From Nitrobacteraceae bacterium AZCC 1564 (GTDB lineage: Bacteria > Pseudomonadota > Alphaproteobacteria > Rhizobiales > Xanthobacteraceae), in contig JBAGRR010000001.1 in assembly GCA_036924835.1 (NCBI GenBank), positions 124,001 through 188,000 of the forward strand: DNA of 64,000 bases, given 5' to 3'. A model generated the notes under the pieces. The model did no database searches, was not told where the DNA came from, and worked only from the letters and a program-made list of their open reading frames with translations. Position numbers and translations under genes: made by a program. The stretch's first letter is position 1. The number at the start of each line of letters is the position of its first letter. This document shows positions 25,867-61,047 of the stretch, one piece after another.

Positions 25867-27288
<1,422 letters not shown>

Positions 27289-27301
27289 CAAGAATATGAA
27301 T

Positions 27302-27380
27302 CCAGTGCGGTTTTGGATCTGACGTTCGTATGATGGACTAGCGGTTAGTGCCGATACGAACGTCAGATCCACCGCACTGG
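27302..27380 (+). repeat. Palindromic repeat element, hairpin II of a composite
   Basis: 79 bp, 13 nt (CAAGAATATGAAT) after hairpin I. Left arm CCAGTGCGG, a TTT bulge, then GGATCTGACGTTCGTAT; right arm is the perfect complement without the bulge, ending CCGCACTGG. The loop carries GCGGTTAG. The end sequences CCAG/CTGG pair with each other, so they are part of the palindrome, not a duplicated target. An inverted copy lies at 46317-46398. Confidence 0.92.
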
Positions 27381-46316: not shown

Positions 46317-46398
46317 CCTTGGTGCGGTGGATCTGACGTTCGTATCAGTATTAACCGCACATCCATCATACGAACGTCAGATCCAAAACCGCACCAGG
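46317..46398 (-). repeat. Palindromic repeat element, hairpin II (inverted copy of 27302)
   Basis: 82 bp. Arms GGTGCGG + TGGATCTGACGTTCGTAT and complement, with an AAA bulge on the right arm, matching the 27302 element read on the opposite strand. Loop on the minus strand carries GATGGATGTGCGGTTAATAC against GATGGACTAGCGGTTAGTGC in the 27302 copy: the arms are better kept than the loop. Ends GGTG/CACC pair, differing from CAGTG/CACTG in the other copy by compensating changes. Confidence 0.92.
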
Positions 46399-46410
46399 TT
46401 CATACTTTTG

Positions 46411-46486
46411 CTAGTGTCCCTTAGGTTCTGACATTCGTAAACGAGCTAACCGCAAACAAATACGAATGTCAGAACCGGGACACTAG
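46411..46486 (-). repeat. Palindromic repeat element, hairpin I (inverted copy of 27214)
   Basis: 76 bp from CTAGTGTCCC to GGACACTAG, 12 nt (TTCATACTTTTG) after hairpin II. Inner stem GGTTCTGACATTCGT is the same as at 27214, with a 3-nt bulge on the arm facing the spacer. Minus-strand loop reads TTTGCGGTTAGCTCGTTT. Together with 46317-46398 it forms a composite of about 167 bp equal to 27214-27380 in reverse. Ends 34 nt before argS. Confidence 0.92.
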
Positions 46487-54874: not shown

Positions 54875-54951
54875 CTAGTGGAGCGGATTTGACATTCGCT
54901 ATCGGTCAGGCAGCGAGTTCGTTCTGCGAATGTCAAATCCAAAGCTCCACT
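54875..54951 (+). repeat. Palindromic repeat element B1
   Basis: 77 bp. AGTGGAGC + GGATTTGACATTCG pairs perfectly with the right arm except for an AAA bulge on the right. The stem is related to the copies at 27302 and 46317 (GGATCTGACGTTCG). Loop of 28 nt contains CAGCGAGTTCGT. The right end (CTCG) is shared with the next element. Confidence 0.88.
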
Positions 54952-55028
54952 CGTGTGGCGTCTTGCAATTGCCGGCCTATCTTGCGGCTGGTGTCTTATC
55001 GGCAATTGCGAGACAAAAGCCACACGAG
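54950..55028 (+). repeat. Palindromic repeat element B2
   Basis: 79 bp. CTCGTGTGGC + GTCTTGCAATTGCCG pairs with its right arm with one mismatch and an AAAA bulge on the right arm. Stem sequence is unlike all other copies, but size, bulge position and a loop core TTGCGGCTGG are the same. Ends CTCG/CGAG pair rather than repeat directly. A 13-nt spacer CATTTTAATTTTG leads to B3. Confidence 0.9.
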
Positions 55029-55041
55029 CATTTTAATTTTG

Positions 55042-55116
55042 CTAGTGTCCTTTCGCCTCCGAATAACCGTGCAAACGTGCGGCAAGTTCGTCGGTTATTC
55101 GGAGACAGGACACTAG
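55042..55116 (+). repeat. Palindromic repeat element B3
   Basis: 75 bp from CTAGTGTCC to GGACACTAG, with inner stem CTCCGAATAACCG and its perfect complement and a 3-nt excess on the left arm (facing the spacer). Inner stem is unrelated to that at 27214, while the ends and loop core TGCGGCAAGTTCGT (compare TGCGGCTAGCTCGT at 27214) are kept. Confidence 0.9.
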
Positions 55117-55130
55117 CAGCTTATATTTGG

Positions 55131-55204
55131 TAGTGGTTCTTGATTCTAACATTTGCAATGGTATCCGCCGAAACAGGATGCAAATGTTAGAATCGAACCA
55201 CTAG
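55131..55204 (+). repeat. Palindromic repeat element B4
   Basis: 74 bp, TAGTGGTTC + GATTCTAACATTTGCA with perfect complement and a TT bulge on the left arm, ending GAACCACTAG. Inner stem resembles the 27214 type (GGTTCTGACATTCG). The loop has CGGCGGATA on the minus strand. Separated from B3 by CAGCTTATATTTGG. Confidence 0.88.
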
Positions 55205-58731: not shown

Positions 58732-60123
58732 ATGTCCCGCTTTGCCGAGTTGATCAGCTCGCGCCGCGTGCCGCATTTCGCGGTCCTGGCGCTCGTTTCA
58801 GTGGGGTTCGGAGGCTGCAGCGCAGATACCTCGACGCGCCTTTCCGATAACTCGTTCTCTAATCCTTTTGCTTCGAGGGGGGCGCCGGAGTCTACGGGCT
58901 CGGTCCATCAAGGTTACCCTCAGCAGAGTTACCAGCAGCCAAGCTATCAGCAGCAGGGCTATCCGCAGCCGCAGCGTGAGCTGCCGCAGTACGCCCGTCC
59001 GCGGTCCGCCCCAGTGATCTCCGCGCCGCTATCTGCGCCTAGCAGTACACCAACATCTGGCGGTGGCCGCGGCATGGCGTCCTATACGCCTCCGTCATCG
59101 CCGATCGAACACACCGGCAGCACGCCTGCGCCGCGCTCGGTTGCCGCGACCCCAGAATTCAATCGCGAGGGTGGGACCAAGATCATTGTCGGCACCTCCG
59201 ATACGCTCGATGTGATTTCGCGCCGCTACAACGTGCCGCAGGCAGAAATCCTTCGCGCGAACGGCTACCGCGGGCCGCGTGTTCTGCAGCCGGGTCAGCA
59301 GCTCATCATTCCTCGTCGCGCCGCTCAGGCGCAGCCGCCTACGTTGTCGCCGGCGCCAGGCACAAAAGTGGCAGCGGGCTTGCCGTCGAGCGTGCATGTG
59401 GTTGCCCCCGGCGACACGCTGATGAATTTGTCTCGCCGTCATCACATCACCGCCGCGCAACTGGCTGCGGCAAATAACATCCCGGTGACGACGCAGCTCA
59501 AGATCGGCGACAAGATCAATATCCCTGGTGGAAAGTCAGGGTCTGTTGCAGCCGCCACTCCGGCACCAGCGCTCGCGTCCGAAACTCCAAAACCGGCCGC
59601 TGTGACGCAAGCTCCGGCTCCCGCCGCAAAGCCTGTTGCCGTCGCGTCCGCTGAGCCTGCGCAGAAAGCACGTCTCGCGTCTGAGGGGCACGATATTCCC
59701 GAAGCTCAGTCGCCGGCGAAAGCTGCCGAAACAACCAACGCGCTGCCAACATTCCGATGGCCAGTGCGTGGCCGCGTGATCACGACCTACGGCGCAAAGA
59801 CCAACGGCAAGCAGAACGACGGCATCAATGTTGCTGTTCCGGAAGGCACGCCCATCAAGGCTGCTGAAGATGGCGTCGTTGCCTATTCGGGCAACGAACT
59901 GAAGGGATACGGCAACCTGATCCTGGTGCGGCATTCCAACGGTTACGTCACCGCCTATGCCCATGCGAGTGAGCTGATGGTGAAACGCGGCGATACGATC
60001 AAACGCGGTCAGGTCATTGCCAAGTCCGGCCAGTCAGGTGAAGTGGGCTCGCCGCAACTTCACTTCGAGATCCGAAAAGGATCTACCGCAGTCGATCCTC
60101 TGCAATTCCTCAACGGCGCTTAG
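58732..60123 (+). CDS. nlpD: NlpD-like lipoprotein: two LysM domains and degenerate M23 (LytM) domain
   Basis: 463 residues. Signal peptide with lipobox-like FGGC at about 30 suggests a lipoprotein; then a Gln/Ser/Pro-rich region with SYQQ/GYPQ repeats, LysM 1 (about 148-192), LysM 2 (about 222-265), an Ala/Pro linker, and a C-terminal M23 domain (about 340-463). The zinc-ligand sites read NDGIN and QLHFEIR where active enzymes have HxxxD and HLHFE, so ligands are replaced, as in NlpD and EnvC. It should therefore activate a cell-wall amidase rather than cut peptidoglycan itself. The final TAG opens the repeat at 60121. Confidence 0.92.
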   Translation: MSRFAELISSRRVPHFAVLALVSVGFGGCSADTSTRLSDNSFSNPFASRGAPESTGSVHQGYPQQSYQQPSYQQQGYPQPQRELPQYARPRSAPVISAPLSAPSSTPTSGGGRGMASYTPPSSPIEHTGSTPAPRSVAATPEFNREGGTKIIVGTSDTLDVISRRYNVPQAEILRANGYRGPRVLQPGQQLIIPRRAAQAQPPTLSPAPGTKVAAGLPSSVHVVAPGDTLMNLSRRHHITAAQLAAANNIPVTTQLKIGDKINIPGGKSGSVAAATPAPALASETPKPAAVTQAPAPAAKPVAVASAEPAQKARLASEGHDIPEAQSPAKAAETTNALPTFRWPVRGRVITTYGAKTNGKQNDGINVAVPEGTPIKAAEDGVVAYSGNELKGYGNLILVRHSNGYVTAYAHASELMVKRGDTIKRGQVIAKSGQSGEVGSPQLHFEIRKGSTAVDPLQFLNGA

Positions 60124-60175
60124 AGCGTTTTCGAGCGAAGTGGCTCACCGGTTCGCGTGAAGAAAACGCGTCAAA
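60121..60175 (+). repeat. Interspersed palindromic repeat of the Bradyrhizobiaceae GCGTTTTC family
   Basis: GCGTTTTC (60125-60132) pairs with GAAAACGC (60162-60169); between them lie GCGAA and TTCGC in pairing order. The sequence around AGCGAAGTGG and CCGGTTCGCGTGA is, from memory, a very frequent intergenic repeat in Bradyrhizobium and relatives. It overlaps the nlpD stop codon. Confidence 0.6.
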
Positions 60176-60186
60176 AGCAAAGTATC

Positions 60187-60231
60187 TAAAACATATGCGG
60201 CTCTGATTAAGTCAGGGCCGCATATGTTTTA
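60187..60231. terminator. Strong hairpin between nlpD and the truncated LysR gene
   Basis: TAAAACATATGCGGC (60187-60201) and its perfect complement (60217-60231) give a 15-bp stem, extended inside by CTGA/TCAG around a TTAAG loop. Each side ends in a run of T or A, so it can end transcription of the two convergent genes. The stop codon of the LysR remnant (60229-60231) lies inside the right arm. Confidence 0.7.
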
Positions 60232-61047
60232 GGGCGCCGTTTTGGTTTTCGGGCGTGCAATTTCCAGCATGAAGTCGATGAAAGCGCGAACCTTTGCCGG
60301 CGCATGTTGCCGCGAAGGATAAAAGGCGTAGAGCGGATATGTCTCGCCATTCCATCCCGGAAACAGTTCGACGAGTTGTCCGCGCTCGATGAAGCCGCGA
60401 ACTGCATTCTCCATCACCTGGGCGATGCCGGTCCCCGCAACGCATTCCATCAGCAGTGCGTCGCCATCGCTTAAGGTGAGCCGGCTTGGCGTCTCAACTG
60501 TCAGGATTTTGCGCTCTTTGTGGAATTCCCAGTCGAAGGCCTGTCCGGTCGCAGGATCGCGGAAGTGAATGCACGAATGGTGCTTAAGGTCGTTCGGGTG
60601 AGCTGGTCGGCCGTGGCGTTTAAGATAGGCAGGCGCGGCGACGGTCAGGATGCGGATATCGAGCAGCTTGCGCGAGACCAGCGAAGGCGCGGCTTGGTCG
60701 CCAAAGCTGATCGCAACGTCGATGCCGTCAGCGACGAGATCGCCGGTCTTGTCCTGCGTGATGATCTCAACCGAGAGTTCTGAATAGCGGGCAAGGAATT
60801 CGCCGAGCCGCCCTGCAAGCACACCGGTCGTGACGAGAATAGCCACTCGTGCGCGCAGGCGGCCGCGGACCACATTGGCGGCGCCGGATGCGTGGACAGC
60901 AGCTTCCTCGATCGCCGCGAGTGATGGTTTGACACGCTCATAAAAGCGGCGGCCTTCTTCGCTCAGGCTGACCACGCGTTTGGTGAGGTTATCCGTGATC
61001 TCGTGAGGGCGGCGGACCCGGAGGATTAATCCGGGCCCGAGCTTGTA
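60229..61047 (-). pseudogene. LysR-family regulator lacking its DNA-binding domain
   Basis: The frame is open from 61047 (TGA at 61050-61048 closes it upstream) and encodes about 272 residues, starting YKLGPGLILRVRRPHE, then the LysR linker RVVSLSEEGRRFYERVKPSLAAIEEA and a full substrate-binding domain. A complete LysR protein needs about 40-45 more residues with the helix-turn-helix before this point; none of the three frames upstream supplies them before the neighbouring gene ends at 61062. Translation from the GTG at 60975 would give only the 248-residue effector domain. Probably an inactive remnant. Confidence 0.75.

Follow-up and report, generated by a model that had tools for sequence, protein, structure and literature searches.

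The four-hairpin array between tatC and serS

The array located between tatC and serS (positions 54875 to 55204 of the window, the whole 64,000-nucleotide stretch of DNA analyzed) contains four bulged hairpins lying one pair within the other, and it raises two questions: how hairpins that share a geometry and differ in stem sequence came to be nested at this place, and whether a folded strand is what is recognized or copied in them, as an initial annotation had proposed. All the hairpins quoted in that annotation were present at the places given. The window contains eight hairpins of this type, with predicted folding energies from -36 to -53 kcal/mol. Together with their spacers they are organized as follows, the hairpin limits including the terminal tetranucleotides and Y and R being the two hairpin types defined below and A-B the composite found at eno:

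27214-27288, plus strand: hairpin A of the A-B composite (Y type; CTAGTGTCC / GGTTCTGACATTCGT); 3′ end of eno
27289-27301, no strand: spacer CAAGAATATGAAT of the A-B composite at eno, 13 nt
27302-27380, minus strand: R-type hairpin B (inner stem GGATCTGACGTTCGTA; compensated CCAG/CTGG end)
46319-46397, plus strand: R-type hairpin B of a second, reversed A-B composite (TTGGTG/CACCAG end)
46398-46410, no strand: spacer of the second A-B composite, 13 nt
46411-46486, minus strand: hairpin A (Y type) of the second A-B composite, which lies between argS and a dGTPase gene
54875-54953, plus strand: outer R-type hairpin (CTAGTGGAGC / inner GGATTTGACATTCGC, 3′ bulge AAA); site empty in relatives
54950-55028, plus strand: nested R-type hairpin (CTCGTGTGGC / GTCTTGCAATTGCCG, bulge AAAA); compensated CTCG/CGAG ends
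55029-55041, no strand: spacer of the nested composite, 13 nt (12-13 nt in 140 of 148 composites)
55042-55116, minus strand: nested Y-type hairpin (CTAGTGTCCT / GTCTCCGAATAACCG, spacer-side bulge)
55117-55129, no strand: spacer of the outer composite, 13 nt
55130-55204, minus strand: outer Y-type hairpin (CTAGTGGTTC / GATTCTAACATTTGCA, spacer-side bulge; the inner end reads GTAG)

The composite at 54950-55116 sits within the composite at 54875-55204, and the last four bases of hairpin 54875-54953 are common to the next hairpin, 54950-55028. The inner stems CTCCGAATAACCG and GTCTTGCAATTGCCG, both from one composite of the window, had been taken for unique. Instead, they belong to subfamilies: hairpin 55042-55116 is one of the 11 members of subfamily TCCC-GTCTCCGAATAACC in the 1.664 Mb of genome sampled, and hairpin 54950-55028 is one of the eight members of subfamily TGGC-GTCTCGCAATTGCC. 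The nested array of four hairpins was also found at full length in at least five other places of the genome (e.g., L322 1501-1832), with 81-87% identity. Movement of the array en bloc was considered and is not preferred; since the outer subfamilies differ among three aligned copies, repeated nesting is as likely. Two other observations were made in the window. The terminal CTAG region of the A-B composite provides the final codons of eno (25909-27225), stop codon included, and positions 60186-60232 contain a 21-bp near-perfect inverted repeat (CTAAAACATATGCGGCTCTGA) that is unlike the twin-hairpin family.

Size of the family and anatomy of the hairpins

The twin-hairpin repeats are a large family of short mobile elements, mostly intergenic, of Afipia and related bacteria. 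The genome was sampled as the window (bases 124001-188000) plus four 400-kb blocks, which amount to 1.664 Mb or 28% of the 5,994,409-base single-contig genome. A structure finder that considers only pairing gave 402 matches in this sample, whereas a single first-order Markov sequence of 400 kb gave three. This difference excludes chance as the origin of the family, although some 12 of the 402 matches may have arisen by chance; the Markov sequence was used in place of the reversed genome sequence, a control unsuitable for inverted repeats. Normalization was possible for 398 hairpins, 390 of them within the pairing limits, and 380 of these 390 carried at least eight of the 12 family terminal bases. 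The family GTG/CAC was lacking in 26 hairpins, some of which look like chance matches. Scaled up from the 390 found in 1.664 Mb, the family would comprise about 1,400 hairpins genome-wide, or about 2% of the genome.

From its ends inward, each hairpin has the 10-bp outer stem CTAGTGNNNN, a bulge in one of the arms, an inner stem of 16 bp, and a loop that measures 19-24 nt in 368 of 390. The 75-80 nt hairpins have CTAGTG/CACTAG on both ends, with all 12 bases matched in 225 of the 390. The bulge is placed on the 3′ arm between outer and inner stems, its commonest forms being AAA, GAA, AAAA, and TAA, and it measures 3 nt in 264 of the normalized hairpins, 4 nt in 80, 2 nt in 22, 1 nt in 15, and 5-6 nt in nine. 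The one-armed bulge described in the initial annotation was confirmed; its distance from the end is 10 bp and not about 9 nt. Constant geometry with variable stem sequence within one repeat family was supported. The stem sequence is itself constrained, a GTTCG-like motif and NNNN classes recurring among hairpins, which counts against the reading preferred below.

Composites join two different types of hairpin

Neighboring hairpins separated by 8-20 nt formed 169 pairs, and in 148 of them the two hairpins were inverted with both bulges toward the spacer. The claim that bulges face the spacer therefore holds for these pairs and not for the other 21, which have mixed orientation; many of the latter resemble nested insertions, and in three the bulge call is doubtful. 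All 148 composites were heterotypic, joining a Y hairpin (classes TCCC, GTCC, TCCT, GTTC, and similar) with an R hairpin (classes TGGT, GAGC, CCGC, CGCT, CGGT, and TGGC). This was established for 146 of them by a rule based on four variable bases and for two by eye, these being one-base variants of the same classes. The rule suits this genome, and elsewhere both partners can score as Y and yet differ in sequence. The spacer is AT-rich, 12-13 nt long in the 140 composites mentioned above, and conserved when read from Y to R, approximately as CAAATCTATGATT. By inspection of the listing, the inner stems of partners tend to be alike (ACATT/ACATT, AAGTT/AAGTT, ACGTT/ACGTT), as would be expected of ends served by one enzyme. 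In 21 cases, one tetranucleotide was common to both neighboring hairpins. The A-B composite was found in near-full dispersed copies with 80-93% identity and sharp ends.

These elements are probably non-autonomous and mobile; each end would be read as a folded hairpin, and the unit moved, by a trans-acting enzyme that was not found. The following sections deal with the evidence bearing on this reading and on three others: a classical miniature inverted-repeat element (MITE), a family of RNA hairpins, and a REPIN family.

Covariation and substitution pattern of the stems

The covariation of the stems that had been noticed in a few copies was confirmed in larger sets. Among the 150 best covariance-model matches, 97.1% of the cells were paired and changes had occurred on both sides in 21 of the 26 pairs; none of 500 shuffles reached the observed value on any of five covariation measures, and pairing dropped to 27-36% when the structure was slid. 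Under a null of our own design that follows R-scape, simulated 20 times on a tree of 345 distinct sequences, 12 of the 26 structural pairs and no other column pair were significant at an E of 0.05, and the best match of a stem column was its partner for 25 of 26 columns. The whole clustered sample contained 282 compensated double cells, 373 one-sided cells, and 43 double cells that were uncompensated or G-U. Since the finder requires pairing, its paired percentages are inflated, and therefore the count was repeated on copies found by BLAST. This set of 30 A-B copies (58 of 60 hairpins located, 1,508 cells) contained 13 compensated doubles versus 0.27 expected by chance, 70 one-sided changes, and no uncompensated double. 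Neither a lack of covariation nor identical stems in the other copies, the two outcomes that would have spoken against the annotation, was found in the genome sample. Paired changes of the terminal bases, also noticed there, were recovered at the second base of CTAG, where among 296 hairpins both sides had changed and were complementary in 20, one side had changed in 28, and both had changed and were unmatched in one. The corresponding numbers for the first base were four, 30, and two, this pair being little coupled.

The substitutions were further divided by their distribution among copies. In 29 A-B copies without a nested insert, total substitution was 3.6% in the arms, 14.3% in the loops, and 13.9% in the spacer, and private substitution in the same 29 copies was 1.8%, 2.4%, and 3.5%, respectively. 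Inherited substitution (total minus private) was thus six- to sevenfold lower in arms than in loops. Because inherited arm changes are rare while the private rates of arms and loops are closer, pairing seems to matter when copies multiply. Resident copies would thus decay fairly evenly, and multiplying lineages would keep their stems, as selection at the copying step predicts; repair, or selection acting on copies where they sit, is less likely to be the main cause of the pattern. The slowness of the arms, mainly in inherited changes, points to a requirement during propagation. Regarding the proposal that a folded strand is recognized, the covariation was borne out and the recognition itself was not established; part of the covariation pattern could come from arm-to-arm correction inside palindromes, or from a protein that binds the inverted ends as double-stranded DNA.

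Such a correction is central to the MITE explanation, which we regard as unlikely. According to it, a DDE transposase binds double-stranded inverted ends, each hairpin amounts to two facing copies of an end, and pairing is maintained not by selection of the fold but by correction of one arm from the other, through template switching or mismatch repair in an extruded palindrome. The ends are indeed inverted, and private arm changes are somewhat below those of loops and spacer. Compensated changes also occur among the private events of A-B copies (eight, versus 39 private singles, i.e., eight of 47 private events). These exceed the expectation for neutral resident copies, an excess that arm-to-arm correction would explain; since they are too many for plain drift, some arm correction, or sister copies absent from the sample, should be allowed for. 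However, correction should lower private and inherited changes alike, whereas the private rates are 1.8% versus 2.4% and the inherited ones six- to sevenfold apart, and it should erase the one-sided bulge, which has been kept.

The same data bear on a second alternative, in which the hairpins act as RNA (terminators, stabilizers of mRNA 3′ ends, or small RNAs), selection for RNA folding in place produces the covariation, and dispersal is secondary or RNA-mediated. The predicted folds are stable, as the energies given above indicate, and one-sided G-U cells are present (124). However, private arm substitutions are not far below those of loops (again 1.8% versus 2.4%), so that selection apparently does not maintain the majority of copies where they sit, and no Rfam 15 family rose above its gathering cut-off in the window, the best value over the hairpins being 35.6 bits versus a cut-off of 60. 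With the orientation data and the search for reverse transcriptases described below, we consider this explanation improbable.

Insertion sites

The tatC-serS locus was obtained from 28 of 28 congeners, though not every one of these loci extends to the junction. The hairpin finder detected no family hairpin near the junction in these 28 loci, and in one locus it detected one more than 1 kb away. By means of a motif on the serS side, the junction could be printed for 19 of 27 loci, of which eight had diverged there and 11 contained an empty site, GGGCTTGAC-CCGG-GCATCC or a close variant (nine with CCGG and two with CGGG), while the filled site of the window reads GGGCTTGAC-CTAG...CTAG-GCATCC. 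In other words, 11 relatives have GACCCGGGC, or something close to it, as the orthologous empty site where the window has GACCTAG...CTAGGC, and the site is empty for the nested pair of composites as a whole. Paralogous empty sites also exist within the genome: the loop of hairpin A, which contains CTAG, and the loop of an R hairpin, which has CGAG or CGAA when empty and CTAG..CTGG in the filled copy. Further orthologous comparison with relative G020 yielded 15 junction-spanning alignments, in which genes were about 77% identical and junctions mostly unreadable. A separate dispersed repeat (GAGCGTTTTCGAGCGAAGTGGNNACCGGTTCGCGTGAAGAAAACGCG), located at 60120-60193 of the window and in the genome blocks, has a central CCGG that is an insertion hotspot. 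Of its copies in the 1.664 Mb, 10 are occupied by composites and eight, matched by a pattern, are empty; the 10 insertions need not be independent, since eight of them are of one subfamily and one orientation. The junction bases at this hotspot vary among insertions in the last base.

Elements are flanked by CTAG on both sides, and their empty sites read CCGG, CGGG, or CGAG as well as CTAG. By the simplest rule, a unit TAG...CTA would move between a C and a G, replacing one or two bases between them, and the TA of the terminal CTAG would be supplied by the element. This rule is provisional: insertions at the CCGG hotspot differ in their last base, and replacement cannot be told from duplication where the target itself is CTAG. 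For the MITE explanation, targets that hold CTAG (the hairpin-A loop, with its TA, and shared hairpin ends) are favorable, and the tatC-serS and CCGG-repeat empty sites are unfavorable, as they hold neither TA nor CTAG to be duplicated. Direct duplication of CTCG on both ends of six composites was examined as a possible target duplication and rejected, since several of these composites share flanks. A general preference for palindromic targets was likewise rejected: the mean folding value of 106 joined empty sites was -12.0 versus -12.5 in 848 controls (p 0.91), and because joined empty sites match controls in folding energy, the CCGG repeat is to be seen as a special case. CTAG occurs outside hairpins 868 times versus 1,460 expected, and this shortage was left out of the argument; a shortage of CTAG is common in bacterial genomes.

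Only three of 148 composites lie inside open reading frames of at least 150 codons, versus 1043 of 1500 random intervals. This almost wholly intergenic location would suit hairpins acting as RNA, whereas their unbiased orientation would not. No replichore bias was seen, with 35 composites in Y-to-R and 45 in R-to-Y orientation in blocks B1 and B2, 34 and 31 in B3 and B4, and one and two in the window. This might count against an obligate lagging-strand single-strand transposon, though the inverted ends may hide a bias.

Distribution in related genomes

A covariance model detected the family in all 28 congeners, with three to at least 74 matches in each. In a first draw, it was present in four of eight genomes of other genera of the bacterial family, and no match came from 24 genomes that represent other families in the order. 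In a wider survey of the bacterial family, 59 of the 119 genomes had hairpins, as did 29 of 47 genera. Among the matches listed for a 16-base element motif, facing pairs came mostly from Afipia records and from a single Bradyrhizobium MAG, and solitary occurrences were scattered elsewhere; Afipia is accordingly the most likely genus of this genome. Plasmids were considered as a vehicle of spread and rejected, as the A-B composite had no match in a plasmid collection.

Search for the mobilizing enzyme

The enzyme searches covered Y1, TnpB, IS110, IS481, IS630, and reverse transcriptases. RAYT, IS200/IS605-like, and reverse transcriptase proteins had been suggested as agents, and the genome did not bear this out: it has no match to Y1_Tnp (PF01797; RAYT/IS200) or to the TnpB zinc-ribbon domain (PF07282), and its sole reverse transcriptase match is a type VI retron (RT_VI and neighboring HTH_VI models; L363 1056-2322). 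Three family hairpins lie about 0.8 kb upstream of this retron. No reverse transcriptase encoded together with a hairpin element was found, the single one of the genome being that of the retron with its own HTH gene, which is a further point against RNA-mediated dispersal. The genome also lacks matches to the IS110 Transposase_20 domain (PF02371). IS481 transposase (NF033577) gave one weak partial match below cut-off, with an internal stop, and DDE_3 (IS630-type) gave one domain fragment. These two matches, in a search limited to a minority of DDE families, leave room for the DDE transposase of the MITE explanation; against it, both matches are fragments, and their 3-kb loci contain no hairpin of the twin-hairpin family.

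A credible copy in which convergent Y and R ends enclose a gene was encountered neither in the 1.664 Mb sample nor in the loci fetched from relatives. Five candidates for an autonomous copy in the genome were rejected: four have gaps of 84-103 bp, with no room for a gene, and the first hairpin of the fifth does not belong to the family. Neither the genome sample nor the fetched relative loci contained a parent insertion sequence sharing the hairpin ends.

The relatives allowed a third alternative to be weighed, namely that these are REPINs mobilized by a RAYT (Y1), an enzyme that is now present in some relatives and has been lost from this genome. Such a family would look much the same, with numerous intergenic copies, bulged palindromes paired in inverted orientation, and a tetranucleotide at the end, and compensatory changes have been reported in REPIN spacers (PMC3116915). 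Y1 genes were found in 11 of 61 relatives, three of them among the 28 congeners. They occurred in four of the nine genomes at the 74-match ceiling versus one of 24 other hairpin-bearing genomes (p 0.013), an association with the hairpin-richest genomes that favors this alternative, and in relative G036 the distance from one weak Y1 match to a composite is about 3 kb. On the other side, no Y1_Tnp match exists in the genome itself or in 25 of 28 hairpin-bearing congeners, several congener assemblies being less than 90% complete. The 15 Y1 loci recovered (14 places, eight of them in hairpin-bearing genomes) had no family hairpin within 1.5 kb, and four of these eight places carry GTAG-type palindromes. 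In relatives G031 and G004 (L286, L288, L372, and L373), RAYT-like Y1 genes adjoin GTAG-type palindromes (GTAGCCCGG...), an ordinary REPtron-like arrangement that is distinct from the CTAG hairpins. Moreover, the hairpins have CTAG on both ends and not GTAG on one, and their length is roughly double the 20-40 bp of REPs (PMC3733652). Movement by a RAYT is therefore very improbable.

A model for the movement of twin-hairpin elements

Returning to the reading that we prefer, a non-autonomous element with folded ends, the mobile unit of about 165 bp would consist of a Y-type and an R-type bulged hairpin inverted around an AT-rich spacer of mostly 12-13 nt. A trans-acting enzyme would recognize each end as a folded hairpin plus a few stem bases, the fold arising by extrusion, either as a cruciform or on single-stranded DNA, and the bulge perhaps serving as a landmark. 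Only copies that still fold would be copied again, and inherited stem changes would thus be rare and mostly paired. Structure-dependent ends are likely. A bolder version, which we put forward tentatively and with less than even confidence, is that the elements belong to a separate transposition system with two structure-recognized ends (Y and R), insertion between C and G, and an enzyme outside the Y1, IS110, IS481, and IS605 groups; this system would make up about 2% of the genome, with Y/R pairs co-evolving across the bacterial family.

If this model is right, a single genome harbors a family of more than 1,000 hairpins without a recognized transposase, undescribed as far as the literature was searched, and the bacteria concerned belong to the family of Bradyrhizobium and Afipia. 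The repeats would provide a natural library of hundreds of partnered hairpin pairs, from whose covariation the reading rules of the enzyme (stem, bulge, and partner) would be legible, as well as a model for the movement of REP-like elements without a RAYT. No description of such elements was seen among the papers listed, judged by titles and the beginnings of abstracts in a coverage with few subscription journals.

Comparison with known systems

Bacterial MITEs such as RUP, Correia/NEMIS, Nezha, and ERIC are short, dispersed, non-coding, and intergenic, with inverted ends. The twin-hairpin elements are like them in being short and non-coding, with inverted ends and precise insertion, and unlike them in that each end is a complete bulged hairpin, the ends are of two types, and insertion, which falls between C and G, leaves no clear target duplication. 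The single-strand transposons of the IS200/IS605 group (IS608, ISDra2) have two different hairpin ends with an extrahelical feature and a short target motif. In contrast to them, the bulges of the two ends of twin-hairpin elements are inverted, and the genome has no TnpA or TnpB match. Among other insertion sequences, IS110/IS1111 target REPs, IS481 elements target CTAG, and IS630 elements target CTAG/TA with duplication of TA.

The closest resemblance is to REP-type repeats of bacteria. REPINs and GTAG REPs (PMC3116915, PMC8266576, PMC3733652) share with the twin-hairpin elements a non-autonomous and mostly intergenic nature, many inverted pairs of imperfect palindromes, a terminal tetranucleotide, a bulge in some palindromes, and paired changes in hairpins. 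Compared with these, the twin-hairpin elements have CTAG on both sides, hairpins of about 75-80 nt with a 26-bp stem and a 19-24 nt loop, and two hairpin types; in addition, neither the genome nor 25 of 28 congeners yielded a RAYT. The nearest lookalike, compared by description and not letter by letter, are the GTAG-14 repeats of Bradyrhizobium and R. palustris, which may be related. According to their report (PMC3733652), these come from the same bacterial family and some have long self-complementary loops of the GCGG/CCGC type of up to 27 bp; the loops of twin hairpins also hold a GCGG core, whereas the tag of GTAG-14 is GTAG. The CGTC-tagged REPs of Bradyrhizobium and others (PMC3733652) are likewise palindromic, occur in the same bacterial family, and have no dedicated transposase known, yet they carry another tag and are short units, not twin composites of such size. 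Overall, the twin-hairpin elements work like a REPIN or a MITE and yet differ from REPINs in tag, length, and RAYT.
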